From Oxalobacteraceae bacterium (GTDB lineage: Bacteria > Pseudomonadota > Gammaproteobacteria > Burkholderiales > Burkholderiaceae_D), in contig JAJTGC010000013.1 in assembly GCA_021298975.1 (NCBI GenBank), forward strand, positions 1 through 40,731: 40,731 nt of DNA, read 5' to 3'. Position 1 is the first letter of the stretch, and each line of letters begins with the position of its first letter. The notes beneath the pieces were generated by a model. That model was given only the letters and a program-made list of their open reading frames with translations. It was not told where the DNA came from and ran no database searches. The position numbers were made by a program, and so were the translations under genes. Positions 4,359 to 12,847 of this stretch are shown here, in pieces.

Positions 4359-5255
4359 TCAGCGCCACAGTGTTGAGCTCTTGAGTAAATGATCGCGGAA
4401 GATGGTCGCAATCGGTGACAGCTGCTTGCCCTTGTGATGCACTACATGCCATTGCGACTGCAGGGGGAAACCCTTGATGTCCAATATCGCGACCCCCAGT
4501 CCTGAAGGCTGCCCTTGCAGCGCGTGCTGAGAGATGATCGCAACACCCAGACCCCCTGCCACGGCTTCGCGAATCGCCTCGTTGCTCCCCAATTCCAATT
4601 TCATCTCAGGATTGAACTGCAGCTTGCGAAAATGTGCATCGGTTGCCATGCGTGTGCCGGAGCCGGGCTCGCGCAGAATAAAGCGGCTACTGGCCAATTC
4701 GCGTAAATCCCTCATGCCTTGATTGGCCGGCCGTTTTTTGCGGGGTCCGATCACGACCAGTGGGTTGGGCATGAACACCTGATCTTCAAGATCAAACGCG
4801 CTCGGCGGCATGGACATGACGTAGAGATCATCGAGATTGTCCGCCAGTCGGCTCACGACACCATCGCGGTTGAGGACTTCCAGCGAGATATCGATGGCAG
4901 GGTAGCGGGCGCAGAAGCTGCCCAGCAGGCGGGGTACGAAATACTTGGCCGTACTGACCACCGCCACTTTCAGGCGGCCTCGCGTCAGGCCCTTGAGACC
5001 ATCGATTTTTTGTTCGAATGCTTCCCACTCAGACGACATCGCTCGAGCGGTGCGAGCGAGTTCCTTGCCGGCCTCGGTAAGATGAACGCGCTTGCCGATG
5101 ACTTCATACAAAGGTATGCCAACCGCATTGGCAGCCTCGCGCAACTGCATCGAGGCAGTGGGCTGAGTCACATGGGTCGCGCGCGCTGCTGCGCTGATAC
5201 TGCCGGTGTCGGCCAGCGCCAGTACCAGCCGCAGCTGGCGGAATGTCATATTCAT
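4359..5255 (-). CDS. LysR-family transcriptional regulator, probably of the adjacent sbtA-like gene
   Basis: A 298-residue LysR-type regulator of normal length. The N-terminal winged helix-turn-helix is clear: FRQLRLVLALADTGSISAAA followed by HVTQPTASMQLREAA and the LTEAG wing. The rest is the usual effector-binding domain. It is divergent from a bicarbonate permease gene across 85 bases that contain two perfect dyads. CbbR/CmpR-type LysR proteins control carbon-fixation and bicarbonate-uptake genes, so a role in responding to inorganic-carbon status is a reasonable inference. The start may be the ATG at 5255 or the one two codons later (5249); neither has a strong ribosome binding site. It probably also represses itself, as is usual for divergent LysR genes. 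Confidence 0.92.
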   Translation of the reverse strand: MNMTFRQLRLVLALADTGSISAAARATHVTQPTASMQLREAANAVGIPLYEVIGKRVHLTEAGKELARTARAMSSEWEAFEQKIDGLKGLTRGRLKVAVVSTAKYFVPRLLGSFCARYPAIDISLEVLNRDGVVSRLADNLDDLYVMSMPPSAFDLEDQVFMPNPLVVIGPRKKRPANQGMRDLRELASSRFILREPGSGTRMATDAHFRKLQFNPEMKLELGSNEAIREAVAGGLGVAIISQHALQGQPSGLGVAILDIKGFPLQSQWHVVHHKGKQLSPIATIFRDHLLKSSTLWR

Positions 5256-5260
5256 CGAGT

Positions 5261-5275
5261 TTTATCTATGATAAA
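5261..5275. promoter_or_regulatory. Dyad operator candidate, LysR-type (TTTATC-TAT-GATAAA)
   Basis: A perfect 6+6 inverted repeat with 3-base spacer, 6 bases upstream of the LysR start codon. It fits the partially palindromic T-N11-A sites bound by LysR proteins. Its position suggests autorepression and joint control of the divergent permease gene. Binding is inferred, not shown. Confidence 0.55.
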
Positions 5276-5284
5276 TAGCGTAAA

Positions 5285-5302
5285 AATCGATTTTACTCGA
5301 TT
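5285..5302. promoter_or_regulatory. Second dyad (AATCGA-N6-TCGATT) overlapping the sbtA -35 region
   Basis: A perfect 6+6 inverted repeat with spacer TTTTAC. It overlaps the putative -35 hexamer (5292-5297) of the permease gene, which is where LysR activation sites usually contact polymerase. With the dyad at 5261-5275 it forms a two-site array typical of divergent LysR promoters. Confidence 0.5.
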
Positions 5303-5320
5303 AACTATTCTGCCTATCAT
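5292..5320 (+). promoter_or_regulatory. Sigma70-like promoter for the bicarbonate permease gene
   Basis: TTTACT at 5292-5297 and TATCAT at 5315-5320 are separated by exactly 17 bases and match 4/6 and 5/6 of the consensus. Transcription would start near 5327, giving a very short leader that contains only the AAGGAGG ribosome binding site at 5330-5336 before the ATG at 5341. Confidence 0.5.
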
Positions 5321-5340
5321 TCGCCGCACAAGGAGGATGT

Positions 5341-6357
5341 ATGCAAAATCTGCTCGATCCAGCGATTCTTTTTTTTGTTTTTGGCGTGATAGCGGGCTGG
5401 TTGCGCTCTGATCTGGAAATACCTGCCGCCACCGCTAAATTTCTGTCCCTGTATCTGCTGATGGCCTTGGGTTTGAAGGGTGGCTTCGCGCTTGCGGCCT
5501 CGGGCCTGAATCCCGCCGTCATGATCAGTCTTTTTGCGGCGATCCTGATGGCTTTCATCGTACCCGCGCTCGGTTATCTGTTTCTCAGGAACCGGGTGGC
5601 GCGATTTGATGCCGCAGCCGTCGCGGCCTCTTACGGCTCGGTCAGTGCAGTCACCTTCGTGACAGCAATGCAGTACCTTGAATCGCAGCAGATGTCTCCG
5701 GGTGGTCACATGGCCGTCGCCATGGTGCTGATGGAGTCGCCCGCGATTCTGATGGCGGTACTGCTCGCCAACATGATTCGTCACGAGCAGGCGAGTGCGC
5801 AGATTGTCCTGGGTCAGGGCGCTACTGCGGCGGTGGTGGGGCAGGGCAGCGCCAGTTTTTCCGGGCCTTCCATGCGCAAAGTGATCCATGAGTCTTTTAC
5901 CAGTGGTGCGCATTTGCTGTTGCTGGCTTCGTTATTGATCGGCTATCTGAGCGGTGAAGCGGGCAAAGTCATGATGCAGACATTTTCGACGGATCTGTTC
6001 AAAGGCATGCTGGCTTTCTTCCTGCTGGACATGGGTCTGATGGTCGCACGCAGCATGCGCGAGTTGCAGGGCAAGTCACCGATACTCCTGGCGTATGCAG
6101 CACTGGCACCCGTGGTTCATGCGGGTATTGCGCTGTTGGTGGCGGTCTTGCTGTCATTGCCGGTGGCTGACGCGGCATTGATCATGGTGCTTTCGGCCAG
6201 TGCCTCGTACATCGTGGTGCCGGCCGTCTTGCGGTATGCGATTCCGGAGGCAAACCCTTCGCTTTATCTGGGTTTGTCCCTTGGCGTCACTTTTCCACTG
6301 AATATTCTGTTCGGAATTCCTCTCTACACGGAGGCCGCCAGACAGGTTCTCGGCTGA
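5341..6357 (+). CDS. sbtA: Sodium-dependent bicarbonate transporter, SbtA family
   Basis: A 338-residue inner-membrane permease of the SbtA family (sodium/bicarbonate symport), with about ten hydrophobic segments in two halves. Family-typical stretches are visible: YGSVSAVTFVTAMQYLE near residues 99-115, the ALGLKGGFAL motif near 43-52, and the C-terminal SASYIVVPAVLRYAIPEANP and LGVTFPLNILFGIPLY segments. A hydrophilic loop around residues 155-180 separates the halves. A strong ribosome binding site (AAGGAGG) precedes the ATG. The gene is paired with a divergent LysR regulator. I see no adjacent SbtB, carbonic anhydrase or true RuBisCO, so it may supply bicarbonate for anaplerotic carboxylation rather than CO2 fixation. 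Confidence 0.92.
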   Translation: MQNLLDPAILFFVFGVIAGWLRSDLEIPAATAKFLSLYLLMALGLKGGFALAASGLNPAVMISLFAAILMAFIVPALGYLFLRNRVARFDAAAVAASYGSVSAVTFVTAMQYLESQQMSPGGHMAVAMVLMESPAILMAVLLANMIRHEQASAQIVLGQGATAAVVGQGSASFSGPSMRKVIHESFTSGAHLLLLASLLIGYLSGEAGKVMMQTFSTDLFKGMLAFFLLDMGLMVARSMRELQGKSPILLAYAALAPVVHAGIALLVAVLLSLPVADAALIMVLSASASYIVVPAVLRYAIPEANPSLYLGLSLGVTFPLNILFGIPLYTEAARQVLG

Positions 6358-8384: not shown

Positions 8385-9761
8385 TTATTTTATTGACTCA
8401 CCGAAGCCCTCCAGCATCAGGCCGTAAAGGTTTGCCTGACCGACCTGTCCGCCTTTGAGCAGCACCTCCTTGCCGTGAATGAGCGGATCATCGGACACCA
8501 AGCTGCAGACATGCGCATTCTGTGCGAAGTGGCTGGCCTTGATCTCCAGCGCTCGGGCGTGGATGTTGCGCATGGTGAAGCTCGACGAGTCACCTCCCGC
8601 GACCACCAGCCTTTGCAGTCCCGCCTGCGCAAAAGCCGCGCGCGCCAAATGCGCAAACAAGTGGCCTATGCGTTGCGCCATGGTCGATGCGTTCACGGGC
8701 TGACTGGATGAACCCGCTGTTGACACTTGCGCATCGTCGGGACCTTCTGCAGTAAACACAAGCACGCTGGTACCTGACGTCAATGCGTCCACCATACGCG
8801 CCGCCATTGTCTTCAGTGCATCCGTATCTTCCCCCGTCAGCACGCCCGCCTCTGCGCGCATCGTGAGAAAGCCAGCCTGTCGCGCCCACACAATCTGCTC
8901 TGCCGACAAAGCAGAACAACTACCGGAGAGCACCAGCAGTCGATCCACTGCGGCCAGCTGGTGTTTCGGCTGGCTTGAAGTCAATATGCCTGATTCGCGC
9001 ATCCAGGCACCGAGTCCGTGGGCAAAGCCCTGCGCGGCCATCGCGCATACCTGACGTTGTCGTGACACGTGCCACACACTGGCCGCAGCTGTCATCACCT
9101 GCTGCAGCGTGTAGCCATCGAACACCACGCTGTCGCAGGTACCGAGCTCGGTGGCGAGCGCTTCGGGTCTATCCTGATAATGATCCAGCTGTCGTAAATC
9201 CACCGCATGGGCCGGAGTAAAGCCTTGCTGTGCGAGTACCCGTGACAACGCCGATTCATGCATTGGCGTAACCGGATGACGTGACATCACCGGATGACGA
9301 TCGAGGCGGTACACCGCCGCACCTGCGCGTGCATAGTGATGGCCAAACATCGTATAACGACCGAACTCGGGCGTCGCCGCCAAAACAGGCAACAGACTGG
9401 CCGGCCAGCACGCCTGCATCAGATGCATTGCATGGCCAAGGCTGCCCGTGTCAGGCGATGAGTCAAAGGTGGAGCAGCATTTGTACTGCACCAGCGGCAC
9501 CTTCAGTTGTCGGAATTGTTCAAGTACCGGCATCAGCTCGGCGCGCATGCCATCAGGGTCCAGTGAGCGCGCTGTACCTGCAATACCTACGACATCGTAA
9601 CTCTGCGCCGCTAGTGTCAGATCATCCGCACCGGGATCGGAAAAAAACAAAATCGTCTTCAATCCGTGTCGTGCATATTGCGCCGCATTATCCGAGGCGC
9701 CCGTAAAATCATCGCCATAAAAAAGTACCTTGGCGCGTCGAGCTTCATTGGCATCGTTCAT
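8385..9761 (-). CDS. DUF1537 four-carbon acid sugar kinase (OtnK/OiaK-like)
   Basis: A 458-residue cytoplasmic kinase of the DUF1537 family, which phosphorylates four-carbon or branched sugar acids such as 3-oxo-tetronate, threonate or 3-oxo-isoapionate. The N-terminal substrate motif is clear: YGDDFTGASDN with DDFTG at 17-21. The C-terminal ATP-binding region has a VVAGGDSSSFTM motif around residues 385-396, where the family has GGxTS. An internal six-residue duplication (RHPVMSRHPVTP) comes from an imperfect 18-base repeat near 9265-9300. It lies 38 bases after the RuBisCO-like gene and is the last gene of the SDR-RLP-kinase operon. This pairing supports phosphorylation of a keto sugar acid before the RLP step. 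The exact substrate is not deducible. Confidence 0.9.
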   Translation of the reverse strand: MNDANEARRAKVLFYGDDFTGASDNAAQYARHGLKTILFFSDPGADDLTLAAQSYDVVGIAGTARSLDPDGMRAELMPVLEQFRQLKVPLVQYKCCSTFDSSPDTGSLGHAMHLMQACWPASLLPVLAATPEFGRYTMFGHHYARAGAAVYRLDRHPVMSRHPVTPMHESALSRVLAQQGFTPAHAVDLRQLDHYQDRPEALATELGTCDSVVFDGYTLQQVMTAAASVWHVSRQRQVCAMAAQGFAHGLGAWMRESGILTSSQPKHQLAAVDRLLVLSGSCSALSAEQIVWARQAGFLTMRAEAGVLTGEDTDALKTMAARMVDALTSGTSVLVFTAEGPDDAQVSTAGSSSQPVNASTMAQRIGHLFAHLARAAFAQAGLQRLVVAGGDSSSFTMRNIHARALEIKASHFAQNAHVCSLVSDDPLIHGKEVLLKGGQVGQANLYGLMLEGFGESIK

Positions 9762-9799
9762 GATGTCATCGCCTCATGATCGAAAAAGCGCGCGGGTGC

Positions 9800-11014
9800 T
9801 CATTTGAATATTTCCAGTGCTTCGCGTAATTCACGATACGTTTTCGCGGCGACATCCAGTGACACACCGGCGATAGCGGCGGCCCAGGACTGCCGCAGGG
9901 CATTCACACCTGCGGTAATACCACCCGGATGTGCAAACAATCCGCCCCCCGCAAGAAAAATCAGATCCGTCGACTGCAGCCGCTCCCAGGTTGGTGCCGC
10001 CTGCCTGACCGTCTGACCCGAAGAAAACACTGGCATGATCGTACAGGGTTTGTCAGCAAACATCGGTGTCAGGCAAGCGCGTGCGGAGGACATCACACTG
10101 TCGTCATCTTCCTGAAATTTGTTGGCAATGCCATTGACGTGCATATGATCTACACCGGCCAGGCGCCACAACTTTTGCCACGCCGTGTAAGACCAGCCCG
10201 ATTGCAAATAGCCCCAGCCATTGCGATGTGCATGAATCGGTAATTGCGCATGACGACGAAAGGCATTGAAGCCTGTCATGCCAACCGAATTCAGACTCAG
10301 CATCACGGCAGTACCACCAAGCCGCTGCACCAGATCGTGACGGTATTTCATCTCATCCAGCTCGCCAGTGAGATTGAAGGCATACATTACTTTTTTACCC
10401 GATCGCTCCGCATGACGATTGATCACCGCCATCGACAGCGTGACGCGCTCATCAAAGGGGCACGCCGGTCCATCTGCCTGCAGCTCATCATCCTTGATGA
10501 AGTCCACACCGGCCTCGCACAGTTGCGCAACGATGTCCGCCGTGTCTTGCGCACTCAGTCCGACCGAGGGTTTGATGATGGTGCCAATCAGCGGCCCGTC
10601 TGGTACGCCACTGAGCGCGCGCGTGCCGGCAATACCAAAGGCCGGACCCGGATACGCCTGCGCAAATGCGGGCGGCAGCGTGATGTCGATCAGCCGCAGC
10701 GACTGCACTGGTTTGAGTTCATACAGATTGCCGGCCACCGTCGCCATCAGGTTGGGCAGCGAGGGTCCCAGGTTATCCAGCGGCCATGACAGCTTCAGTT
10801 CATAGCATTTGGCGTCGCTGCTGCCCGCTTGATCCAGCGCCGTGATTTCATATCGGGCAGCAGCACGCGCCTTGAGTGCTTCGTCTTCGCCAGGAATCGC
10901 AATGAAAGTACCCGAAGATTGTTCGCCTGCGATCAATGCCGCCGTTTTTTCCGGATCAGCGGCGGTTTCAAGATGGTAGACGGCGTCGATGCGCATGGTC
11001 GTGCAGAGATTCAT
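9800..11014 (-). CDS. RuBisCO-like protein (form IV RLP)
   Basis: A 404-residue protein of the RuBisCO large-chain superfamily, shorter than true RuBisCO (about 450-480). Active-site landmarks by eye: GTIIKPSVG with Lys148, the carbamate/Mg motif DFIKDDE (Lys174, Asp176, Glu177), HAHRNGWG at 261-268, loop-6-like NGIANKF with Lys299, SSGQ at 331-334, and the phosphate-binding GGG at 356-358. Retention of the metal site argues for enolisation chemistry. The HAHRNGWG and SSGQ segments differ from carboxylating RuBisCO. Known RLPs beside DUF1537 kinases act on 3-oxo-isoapionate 4-phosphate (decarboxylase or transcarboxylase/hydrolase), which is the closest analogy. The gene starts 3 bases after the SDR stop. 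ATGs at 11014 and 10996 are both possible. Confidence 0.93.
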   Translation of the reverse strand: MNLCTTMRIDAVYHLETAADPEKTAALIAGEQSSGTFIAIPGEDEALKARAAARYEITALDQAGSSDAKCYELKLSWPLDNLGPSLPNLMATVAGNLYELKPVQSLRLIDITLPPAFAQAYPGPAFGIAGTRALSGVPDGPLIGTIIKPSVGLSAQDTADIVAQLCEAGVDFIKDDELQADGPACPFDERVTLSMAVINRHAERSGKKVMYAFNLTGELDEMKYRHDLVQRLGGTAVMLSLNSVGMTGFNAFRRHAQLPIHAHRNGWGYLQSGWSYTAWQKLWRLAGVDHMHVNGIANKFQEDDDSVMSSARACLTPMFADKPCTIMPVFSSGQTVRQAAPTWERLQSTDLIFLAGGGLFAHPGGITAGVNALRQSWAAAIAGVSLDVAAKTYRELREALEIFK

Positions 11015-11017
11015 TGT

Positions 11018-11794
11018 TCAAAGGCCACGCGCGCCACTGGATAAAAATCCGCCATCCACGGGCATGGCGATTCCCGTGATGTAGGCCGCATCGTCGGAGG
11101 CCAGAAACTGCACCGCAGCACCGACCTCGGACACCGTACCGTAGCGGTTCATCGGAATGGCTTTCGAATACTCGGCGCGAAATTGCGCGGTGTGCAGCAA
11201 TTGGGTCATGGGCGTGTCGACGGGGCCGGGCGCGACCGCATTGGCGGTAATGCCATGTTCGGCGAGTTCAACGGCCATTTGTCGTGTCAGCGCAATCACG
11301 GCGCCTTTGGATGTACCGTAGGCAGTGCGACCCGTACCCACCGCCCGCATGCCAGCGACCGAGGCGATGTTGATGATGCGGCCCCATTGATGACGCATCA
11401 TCAGGCGCGCCGCATGCTGACTGCAGAGCAGGGTGCCGGTGACATTGATGTTCATCGTGCGCTCGAACTCCGCCAGCGGGAAATCGATGAAGGACGCCAC
11501 TTTGGCAACGCCCGCGCAATTGACCAGAATATCGCAGCGGCCGTGCGCCTTGGCGATCGCATCAAAAGCGGTCGCGATGGTTCCGGCATGGCCCACGTCC
11601 ATGGTGATTGCTGTGACAGACAGCTGCTGCGATTGCAGCTGTGTCACCATGGCCGCGCTGGCCGCTTCATCGCGATCGGCGATGACCACATGATGGCCGA
11701 TTCGCGCCAGCCGCTCGACCACGTCGGCGCCAATCCCCATGGCACCACCGGTCACGACGGCGACGCGCGCTGGTGATTTGACTTCCTGATTCAC
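11018..11794 (-). CDS. SDR-family dehydrogenase of the RLP operon
   Basis: A 258-residue classical short-chain dehydrogenase: TGGAMGIG at 15-22, NCAG at 92-95, catalytic Ser145, Tyr159 and Lys163 (YGTSK). It is the first gene of the operon and lies three bases upstream of the RLP, so it most likely oxidises a sugar acid to the keto acid that the DUF1537 kinase phosphorylates and the RLP then processes. This order (oxidise, phosphorylate, cleave) parallels four-carbon acid and apionate pathways. The start is GTG at 11794, with a GGGGGA ribosome binding site a few bases upstream. No transporter or regulator is attached to the operon. Confidence 0.92.
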   Translation of the reverse strand: MNQEVKSPARVAVVTGGAMGIGADVVERLARIGHHVVIADRDEAASAAMVTQLQSQQLSVTAITMDVGHAGTIATAFDAIAKAHGRCDILVNCAGVAKVASFIDFPLAEFERTMNINVTGTLLCSQHAARLMMRHQWGRIINIASVAGMRAVGTGRTAYGTSKGAVIALTRQMAVELAEHGITANAVAPGPVDTPMTQLLHTAQFRAEYSKAIPMNRYGTVSEVGAAVQFLASDDAAYITGIAMPVDGGFLSSGARGL

Positions 11795-12073
11795 GCTTTC
11801 CCCCGCTGCTGCATTGTTTTTTTTGTACCGTAACTGACGGCTGTCCTCTGATGGAATTGATCAGCTTGATGGTGTTGGTTGACCCACTGGGCCCGCAATA
11901 ACGGACGCAAAGATATCACACCGAACCCGCCGGTTGAGTGTCGGATCAACCGTCCGATCGAACGTCCTGACCCGGTCAGATCGGCAATGCAGTCCTGCAG
12001 CGATTGACACGCGCTGCGGTGCGACATGCGGATTTGCGTATCATGCAGGCTGACCATAACAAGGAGAGCGACT

Positions 12074-12847
12074 ATGCGCGCCATATGTGTGTTGATGAGC
12101 CTGTTTGCCGCTGCCGCTGCTTTTGCGGATCCCGCCAAGACCTTTCGGGACTGCCCAAGCTGTCCCGACATGGTCGTCATCCCGGCAGGCAGTTTCGTGA
12201 TGGGTACCCCGGACACGGCACGCTCGGCGCCGAACGACAGCAGCAATGACAAGGAAAAGCCGGCACGCACCGTGCAGATACAATCTTTCAGCCTTGGTAA
12301 ATATGAAGTGACGCAAGCTGAGTGGATCGCCATCATGGGCGACAATCCGAGCGAGAATGAAGGCAAAAATTTTCCGGTGGACCATGTGAGTTGGGAGATG
12401 GCGCTGAGTTTTGTGGACAAGCTGAGCCAACTGACCGGCAAGAAGTATCGTTTGCCCAGCGAGGCGGAGTGGGAATATGCCGCTCGCGCAAACACGTCAA
12501 AGGAATACTACGATAGCGACGAGGTCGCTTCACTGGATGCATACGCTTGGTTCAATTCGAACTCGGACAAGGAAGTGCACGCAGTAGGCCAGAAAAAGCC
12601 GAATCAGTTCGGCTTGTACGACATGCACGGCAATGTATGGGAATGGACGCAGGACTGCTGGAACCCGAATTATCAGGGCGCACCCAAAACGCAGGCCGCA
12701 TGGGAAGAGGGTAATTGCGAGTCTCGCGTGAACCGCGGTGGCTCCTGGTTCAATGTGGCACGCATGCTGAGATCGGCCTTTCGGTCACGCTTCTCAACCA
12801 CGCTCAAAAGTCCGTATTTCGGGTTGCGGGTGGCGCGGTCGGATTGA
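12074..12847 (+). CDS. Exported SUMF1/formylglycine-generating-enzyme-fold protein
   Basis: A 257-residue protein of the SUMF1 (FGE-sulfatase) domain family. The signal peptide is 1-18 (cleavage after AFA). Family landmarks: MVVIPAGSFVMGT near 33-45, KYEVTQAEW near 76-84, YRLPSEAEWEYAARA at 125-139, GLYDMHGNVWEW, and the closing RVNRGGSW...RSAFR...FGLRVAR. True FGE has two copper-binding cysteines just after the GGSW-equivalent segment; here it reads GGSWFNVARMLRSAFR with none. Sulfatase activation is therefore unlikely, and no sulfatase gene is nearby. It is probably a periplasmic binding or structural member of the fold. The start is fixed by AAGGAG at 12061-12066. It is monocistronic, with a strong terminator after it. 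Confidence 0.88.
   Translation: MRAICVLMSLFAAAAAFADPAKTFRDCPSCPDMVVIPAGSFVMGTPDTARSAPNDSSNDKEKPARTVQIQSFSLGKYEVTQAEWIAIMGDNPSENEGKNFPVDHVSWEMALSFVDKLSQLTGKKYRLPSEAEWEYAARANTSKEYYDSDEVASLDAYAWFNSNSDKEVHAVGQKKPNQFGLYDMHGNVWEWTQDCWNPNYQGAPKTQAAWEEGNCESRVNRGGSWFNVARMLRSAFRSRFSTTLKSPYFGLRVARSD

Follow-up and report, generated by a model that had tools for sequence, protein, structure and literature searches.

A short-chain dehydrogenase gene in place of ApnO at recurring loci of RuBisCO-like protein and DUF1537 kinase genes

In the D-apiose and D-apionate pathway, which Carter et al. are said to have described in 2018, ApnO reportedly makes 3-oxo-isoapionate from D-apionate, and OiaK works together with either OiaX or OiaT. 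Decarboxylation and transcarboxylation/hydrolysis are the known outcomes of RuBisCO-like protein (RLP) action on 3-oxo-isoapionate 4-phosphate (PMC6302742), and an RLP oxygenase is described in a D-hamamelose pathway, yielding 3-phosphoglycerate and glycolate (PMC8914248). Here we describe a three-gene operon from an Oxalobacteraceae bacterium, located in a stretch of 40,731 nucleotides (contig JAJTGC010000013.1; hereafter the window), that combines an RLP and a kinase with a short-chain dehydrogenase/reductase (SDR). The gene order is SDR, RLP, kinase:

11018..11794, minus strand: NAD(P)-dependent dehydrogenase of the SDR family, gene 1 of 3, 258 amino acids, GTG start (Pfam adh_short_C2, 214 bits)
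9800..11014, minus strand: RLP, form IV, 404 amino acids (RuBisCO_large 204.7 bits, RuBisCO_large_N 48.3 bits)
8385..9761, minus strand: DUF1537 acid-sugar kinase (SBD_N and NBD_C), 458 amino acids (SBD_N 159.5 bits, NBD_C 80.9 bits)

The intergenic gaps are 3 bases between SDR and RLP and 38 bases between RLP and kinase, in agreement with the original prediction of three tightly packed minus-strand genes. That prediction also proposed a three-enzyme RLP-DUF1537 route akin to apionate catabolism, opened by the SDR. The best curated matches of RLP and kinase are indeed OiaX (403.8 bits) and OiaK (323.8 bits), and the comparison of loci supports the SDR as an alternative enzyme for the first step.

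At recurring RLP-kinase loci the SDR takes the place of ApnO, and the module is not a one-off. Partner genes were mapped by hidden Markov model (HMM) searches of all open reading frames (ORFs) in large loci, using families from our own clusters; where GC content was high, simple ORF calling put genes in the wrong place. 'ApnO' denotes a PGDH_C protein, labelled 'phosphogluconate dehydrogenase C-terminal domain-containing' by NCBI and lying with apiose-type genes; we take this cluster to be D-apionate oxidoisomerase, with the function from Carter et al. PMC11747546 agrees with this function. 'Window-type SDR' denotes a score of at least 300 (at least 380 in the SDR tree) against an HMM that was itself made from SDRs of this type. 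Among 136 distinct loci larger than 9 kb, 79 were ApnO-linked and 19 carried a window-type SDR; of the rest, 7 showed a weaker SDR and 31 neither. None had both ApnO and a window-type SDR. An ApnO match of at least 60 bits was found nowhere in the 21 distinct window-type SDR loci. Apiose-type genes (ApsD or ApnL type, cluster names assigned from position and the NCBI labels Gfo/Idh/MocA oxidoreductase and 'hypothetical protein') were present in 31 of the 79 ApnO loci larger than 9 kb versus 0 of the 21 SDR loci (two short loci included); the counts in the first batch were 23/63 and 0/17. Loci L172-L176, L178 and L179 were picked via an SDR search and are not independent proof of the SDR-RLP linkage. 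In the RLP clade of the window itself, the complete SDR-RLP-kinase trio was found in all 9 distinct loci. Within the genus the operon is patchy; the RLP was present in 4 of 10 sampled genomes, and the SDR in the identical four.

Homologue searches for ApnO were extended to eight genomes with the SDR operon. It was absent from six of them (G000, which is the window's genome and 88.6% complete, G122, G047, G097, G078 and G851), and the positive control, G077, from which the query was taken, matched. A PF16896 search of the window's genome gave no match, but its controls were silent too, so that the absence of ApnO rests on the homologue search; a glcD search gave matches below the cut-off only. 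In G156, ApnO adjoins a second RLP-kinase pair (L052), and in G823 it lies about 8 kb from a second RLP (46% identical). The presence of both systems in these two genomes is an argument for different substrates.

In a tree of 49 rows, the 21 window-type SDRs form a single clade (95/96, in 95% of bootstrap trees), with long-branch warnings, above all for the outgroup rows. The score threshold partly builds in the split between window-type and weaker SDRs; it does not do so for the thiolase-linked sister SDRs, and the clade is not forced by score alone because the scores of the sisters overlap with those of its members (386 vs 383-385). In Burkholderiales, Azospirillum, rhizobia and Chimaeribacter, members of the clade adjoin RLP-kinase pairs, often together with a TRAP, KdgT or MFS transporter. 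Residues D40, N117, S145, Y159, K163, R150 and R156 are each invariant in 21/21 aligned window-type SDRs. We take D40, at the end of beta2, as a sign of NAD preference and N117/S145/Y159/K163 as the catalytic set; R150 and R156 are possible carboxylate contacts.

The distribution of the SDR was determined by genome searches in which at most 13 candidates per genome were scored. The 195 genomes of the window's family gave 21 matches; six, at 63-100% identity, were all in RLP operons. The other 15 were 54-60% identical, and none of the ten examined lay in an RLP operon. A thiolase and acyl-CoA ligase cluster (names from one representative) was nearby at nine of these ten loci, the tenth being a 4.1-kb contig; three of the ten had no usable SDR ORF for the tree. 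These sister SDRs probably serve another pathway, perhaps likewise producing beta-keto acids. Their surroundings (L286-L294) show a conserved set of sister SDR, second SDR, TRAP transporter, thiolase (PRK07516), acyl-CoA synthetase (PRK07470) and PCC-domain proteins. In the 199 genomes of a further family (f51, taken as Rhizobiaceae), the SDR was found at E <= 1e-65 in two, both times adjoining an RLP. On plasmids, 10/10 records with an SDR identity of at least 58% (H61-H70), among the best 60 of 1345 records, had an RLP within about 11 kb.

The RLPs have a different history. In the RLP tree (122 rows; bootstrap just short of convergence, correlation 0.989), 6 changes are required to explain the SDR label, and the 21 SDR-linked RLPs form a single clade in 0/200 bootstrap trees. 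There being one SDR clade and several RLP lineages, one dehydrogenase lineage was therefore joined to several RLP lineages. Since relatives of these RLPs are paired with ApnO, the sharing of this SDR lineage among them hints at an intermediate of the same type. The simplest explanation would be an identical intermediate, as with isoapionate (C5) as substrate: the SDR would form 3-oxo-isoapionate, and the remainder would be the apionate pathway with an OiaT-like transcarboxylase/hydrolase. An OiaT-like route would end in 3-phosphoglycerate and glycolate. The kinase and RLP, being nearest to OiaK and OiaX, fit this route. However, isoapionate is not known to have an abundant natural source, two genomes retain both systems, and the OiaT class is assigned indirectly (no OiaT model was among the NCBIfam matches of the window RLP), which leaves isoapionate a somewhat doubtful substrate.

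The original prediction had called for a placement of the RLP relative to OiaX. The OiaX rows group apart from the rest (clade support 100/100 with 3 rows in the 122-row tree; also separate with 7 rows) and the window RLP falls outside this clade, as do three Ancylobacter (Xanthobacteraceae) RLPs with ApnO. The window RLP has the RuBisCO large-chain fold and both Pfam domains, as expected of a form IV RLP. Its AlphaFold2 model (mean pLDDT 92.1) has a TM-score of 0.91 to RLP 3nwr and of 0.87-0.90 to chains titled type III RuBisCO. Two other identities were rejected. A role as MtnW in methionine salvage is contradicted by a score of 127.2 bits against a cut-off of 513.6, and the placement in the MtnW/enolase clade by which the original prediction might have failed was not borne out. 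A true RuBisCO is contradicted by five substituted catalytic positions and by 230.9 bits against a cut-off of 497.45 for the form III model. The motifs around the active site are (RuBisCO sites in spinach numbering):

10484..10495, minus strand: KDDE motif, RLP residues 174-177 (RuBisCO K201, D203, E204)
10211..10234, minus strand: HAHRNGWG, RLP residues 261-268 (H263/R264 = RuBisCO H294/R295; W267 replaces H298)
10016..10024, minus strand: SSG, RLP residues 331-333 (S331 = RuBisCO S379, S332 replaces G380, G333 = G381)
9941..9949, minus strand: GGG phosphate-site motif, RLP residues 356-358 (G357/G358 = RuBisCO G403/G404)

Lys174/Asp176/Glu177 and the GGG site (Gly356-358) are present as had been predicted. 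The segments HAHRNGWG and SSGQ are present too, but their description as unlike RuBisCO did not hold, as H263-R264 correspond to H294-R295 and S331/G333 to S379/G381.

The active site was compared in an alignment of 168 distinct RLPs and the RuBisCO of the window's own genome. The RLPs comprised 21 SDR-linked, 82 ApnO-linked and 8 weaker-SDR rows, 50 that had neither or not enough sequence to decide (many of these being short loci) and 7 OiaX rows (six above the NCBIfam cut-off, one NCBI-named); five duplicates, one short RLP and seven RuBisCO-like outgroup rows of the alignment were dropped before counting. The window RLP retains 15/20 RuBisCO positions (E60, T65, N123, K175, K201, D203, E204, H294, R295, H327, K334, S379, G381, G403 and G404) and has substitutions at five (W66F, K177S, H298W, L335F and G380S). 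In the 161 non-OiaX rows, E60, N123 and H327 are kept in 161/161 and S379 in 160/161. At RuBisCO sites 60, 123, 327 and 379, all 7 OiaX rows carry D, G, Q and G/C, respectively, where the window RLP has E31, N96, H292 and S331 and so lacks the OiaX residue pattern. In RuBisCO, E60, N123 and K334 take part in gas addition and in the steps that follow. OiaX therefore appears to have specialised in decarboxylation, and the class of the window RLP appears capable of the later, cleaving half-reaction.

An OiaX-like RLP would merely remove CO2, leaving a ketose phosphate. OiaX is the best curated model, at 403.8 bits, and the window RLP is 46% identical to an NCBI-named OiaX. The score nevertheless stays below the cut-off of 700 (exceeded in 6/398 genomes of the phylum), four catalytic positions separate all 7 OiaX rows from the class of the window RLP, and the OiaX rows are a clade of their own, so that we consider plain decarboxylation unlikely. 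Of the two outcomes named in the original prediction, decarboxylation or hydrolysis, plain decarboxylation is disfavoured; C-C cleavage is favoured because the RLP keeps RuBisCO residues that are lost in OiaX.

We give about an even chance to a reading of the operon as a catabolic route for a free 2-C-branched (2-hydroxy-2-hydroxyalkyl) sugar acid, a class of mechanism rather than a single substrate. The SDR would be expected to oxidise the hydroxyl at C3 with NAD+, giving a 3-oxo acid comparable to 3-oxo-isoapionate and replacing ApnO. The DUF1537 kinase, judged by its family, would phosphorylate the terminal hydroxyl. The RLP, presumably a carbamylated-lysine/Mg enzyme like RuBisCO, would then split the phosphorylated beta-keto acid, a compound similar to the carboxylated intermediate of RuBisCO itself, between C2 and C3. 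The most likely products would be 3-phosphoglycerate and a two- or three-carbon hydroxy acid, and not those of decarboxylation alone.

The leading substrate candidates are isoapionate, discussed above, and hamamelonate (2-carboxyarabinitol). In a D-hamamelose-type route, hamamelonate (2-carboxy-D-arabinitol, C6) would be converted by the SDR to 3-oxo-hamamelonate and by the kinase to the 5-phosphate, which is RuBisCO's six-carbon intermediate minus one phosphate. Cleavage by the RLP would give 3-phosphoglycerate and glycerate on hydrolysis, or 3-phosphoglycerate and glycolate with O2. The 15/20 retained RuBisCO positions agree with such chemistry, and Phaseolus is the source of 4/6 rhizobial/agrobacterial plasmids with a window-type SDR, a count without base-rate correction that is weakened by the sampling, since bean rhizobia are heavily sampled. 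Moreover, no gene labelled hamamelose dehydrogenase or lactonase was found in the annotated SDR plasmid loci, whose tables are incomplete and labels generic (L179 has no labels). The literature fits this route: an RLP is reported to act as an oxygenase in a D-hamamelose pathway of Ochrobactrum anthropi (Kim et al. 2018, via PMC8914248), the title of Beck et al. 1989 equates 2-carboxyarabinitol 1-phosphate with D-hamamelonic acid 2'-phosphate, and Phaseolus vulgaris accumulates 2-carboxyarabinitol and its 1-phosphate (PMC9833046). We regard this route as a tentative possibility. That the operon degrades 2-carboxy-D-arabinitol, which is what remains of the night-time RuBisCO inhibitor of plants once its phosphate is removed, is likewise doubtful. 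SDR and kinase would here build 3-oxo-2-carboxyarabinitol 5-phosphate, the mono-phosphate twin of the six-carbon intermediate of RuBisCO, and the RLP would run RuBisCO's second half-reaction on it.

The kinase belongs to DUF1537 by both of its domains (PF07005, 159.5 bits, gathering 25; PF17042, 80.9 bits, gathering 28.3). As DUF1537 kinases are known to act on C4 acids, a linear route from threonate or erythronate was considered, in which the SDR would give 3-oxo-tetronate, the kinase the 4-phosphate, and the RLP would replace the class II decarboxylase OtnC. The match to OxoTetrKin is weak (130.8 bits), far under the cut-off of 350, and the SDR/RLP/kinase locus L177 has separate OtnK and OtnC neighbours, its SDR belonging to a second clade; this route seems very unlikely.

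The original prediction noted the lack of a transporter, which is true of the window but not of its relatives L034 and L035 (same genus), which carry TRAP genes (DctP and fused DctQM) inside the operon, between RLP and kinase. TRAP genes are also present at SDR loci L050, L051, L169, L172 and L179, a KdgT-type permease at L174-L176 and L178 (three of them also with an ABC sugar transporter) and an MFS transporter at L173, as for uptake of a free acid, which these transporters would fit. Elsewhere in the window's genome, on contig C127 (L250, 3396-9937), an SDR, TRAP genes (DctP, DctQM), a hydroxyisobutyrate-dehydrogenase-like gene and, by eye, two transketolase halves probably make up another acid pathway. 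Its DctP is 46-53% identical to that of the relatives and its DctQM 61-72%, making this TRAP a candidate importer for the window operon, though it lies within its own SDR-TRAP-transketolase cluster.

As to the product, pyruvate kinase was found within 12 kb of 4/17 SDR loci (L050, L051, L169 and L179) versus 2/63 ApnO loci (L085 and L177; Fisher p 0.017), which weakly hints at 3-phosphoglycerate. Moving L177 to the SDR side would give 5/18 vs 1/62 (p 0.0018); this count was not used, since the SDR of L177 is of the second clade. L177, on plasmid p2 of Cupriavidus pinatubonensis, holds an island with enolase and pyruvate kinase (two genes of each), PEP carboxylase, GAPN and OtnK/OtnC; its second-clade SDR adjoins an RLP, and a hydrolase, a kinase and TRAP genes are also part of the island.

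Several points weigh against the reading as a branched-acid route. The four pyruvate-kinase SDR loci represent two lineages only (L050/L051/L179 and L169), and the 88.6% completeness of the window's genome limits what gene absences can tell. In the SDR tree, 8 weaker SDR rows near RLPs form a second, separate clade (99/94). SDR front ends for RLPs therefore arose at least twice, against a simple story, and SDR plus RLP need not signify a single substrate. The sister SDRs, 54-60% identical, sit in thiolase/acyl-CoA-ligase/TRAP clusters, and the substrate class of the SDR may exceed sugar acids. Neither RLP nor kinase reaches the cut-off of 700 bits of its best NCBIfam match (OiaX, NF042437, 403.8 bits; OiaK, NF042436, 323.8 bits). 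Residue retention suggests, and does not prove, C-C cleavage, with action as an oxygenase or simple decarboxylase as alternative outcomes, and the OiaX sample is small (7 rows, two families). Finally, kinases of the window clade are 31-37% identical to out-of-clade kinases, while the RLPs are 59-65% identical to several of the same loci; the outlier kinase may signal a different substrate.

All three genes are under purifying selection. Against L059/L058 (80-90% identity), dN/dS was 0.076/0.056 (SDR), 0.082/0.065 (RLP) and 0.097/0.083 (kinase). A sigma-70 scan of the window gave 2 sites, 0 on the minus strand, versus 2.3 in shuffles, and no promoter or terminator signal in the window exceeded the shuffle level. 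Divergent from the SDR lies a gene for an FGE-sulfatase/PvdO-like protein (12026-12847), and a similar gene adjoins the operon in a few near relatives. At 4359-6357, genes for an SbtA-type Na+/bicarbonate permease (PF05982, 353 bits) and a LysR regulator are arranged divergently; the regulator scores highest against CbbR (207.7 bits, under the cut-off). This pair, 2-4 kb downstream, was rejected as operon partners, as it adjoins the operon only in the window, L033 and L058 among the nine window-clade loci covered (L061 and L064 being short contigs). True RuBisCO is also encoded in the window's genome, on contig C5.

Other RLP-kinase pairs have further surroundings. In L054 (9103-9642) and L246 (8928-9467) the pair lies with TRAP genes and a VOC/glyoxalase-like protein and no recognised dehydrogenase. 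In L253 (9128-10090) an NAD-epimerase-like gene and TRAP genes adjoin the pair, with neither ApnO nor a window-type SDR. One RLP reading frame of an f51 genome (L214/L271, G775:C92:40465-41706) has a single in-frame TAA.

RLPs can be seen as natural experiments on the capabilities of the RuBisCO active site. A large set of them keeps E60, N123, H327, K334 and S379, of which the decarboxylase OiaX has lost four, and a sequence rule from these sites may tell RuBisCO-like cleavage apart from mere loss of CO2. The SDR clade in ApnO's place points to a sugar-acid pathway, possibly a sink for 2-carboxyarabinitol. If hamamelonate were the substrate, bacteria of algae, leaves and legumes would eat a RuBisCO inhibitor with a relative of RuBisCO, and the SDR lineage would have been joined to several RLP lineages for that purpose. 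Among the matches listed from the open PMC literature, no title or start of an abstract describes the SDR-RLP-DUF1537 combination; the subscription literature is outside this scope.

Compared with known systems, the window RLP shares the fold and 15/20 catalytic positions with true RuBisCO and differs at W66F, K177S, H298W, L335F and G380S. Its closest solved structure is the RLP 3nwr of Burkholderia fungorum (375 bits, TM 0.91, 45% identity over the structural alignment). Loci with 3nwr-like RLPs (L053-L057, by eye), however, have neither a window-type SDR nor ApnO; 4/5 have DctP or DctQM, and L054 has a VOC-type protein. In the D-hamamelose pathway, an RLP is likewise reported to end a branched-sugar route, giving 3-phosphoglycerate and glycolate (Kim, Lim and Lee 2018). 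As in the window, the D-apiose/D-apionate pathway (OiaK with OiaX or OiaT) has the kinase and RLP superfamilies side by side, and the window RLP is 60-61% identical to the five ApnO-linked RLPs compared. In contrast to that pathway, the window has the SDR for ApnO and does not belong to the ApnO-dependent type, genes of the apiose dehydrogenase or lactonase type are absent from the 21 SDR loci, and the window RLP is without the residue pattern of OiaX. The operon looks like a dehydrogenase-led version of the apiose route that occurs in several bacterial families; the variant or new route of the original prediction is in this respect supported, yet as a recurring module rather than a single case.

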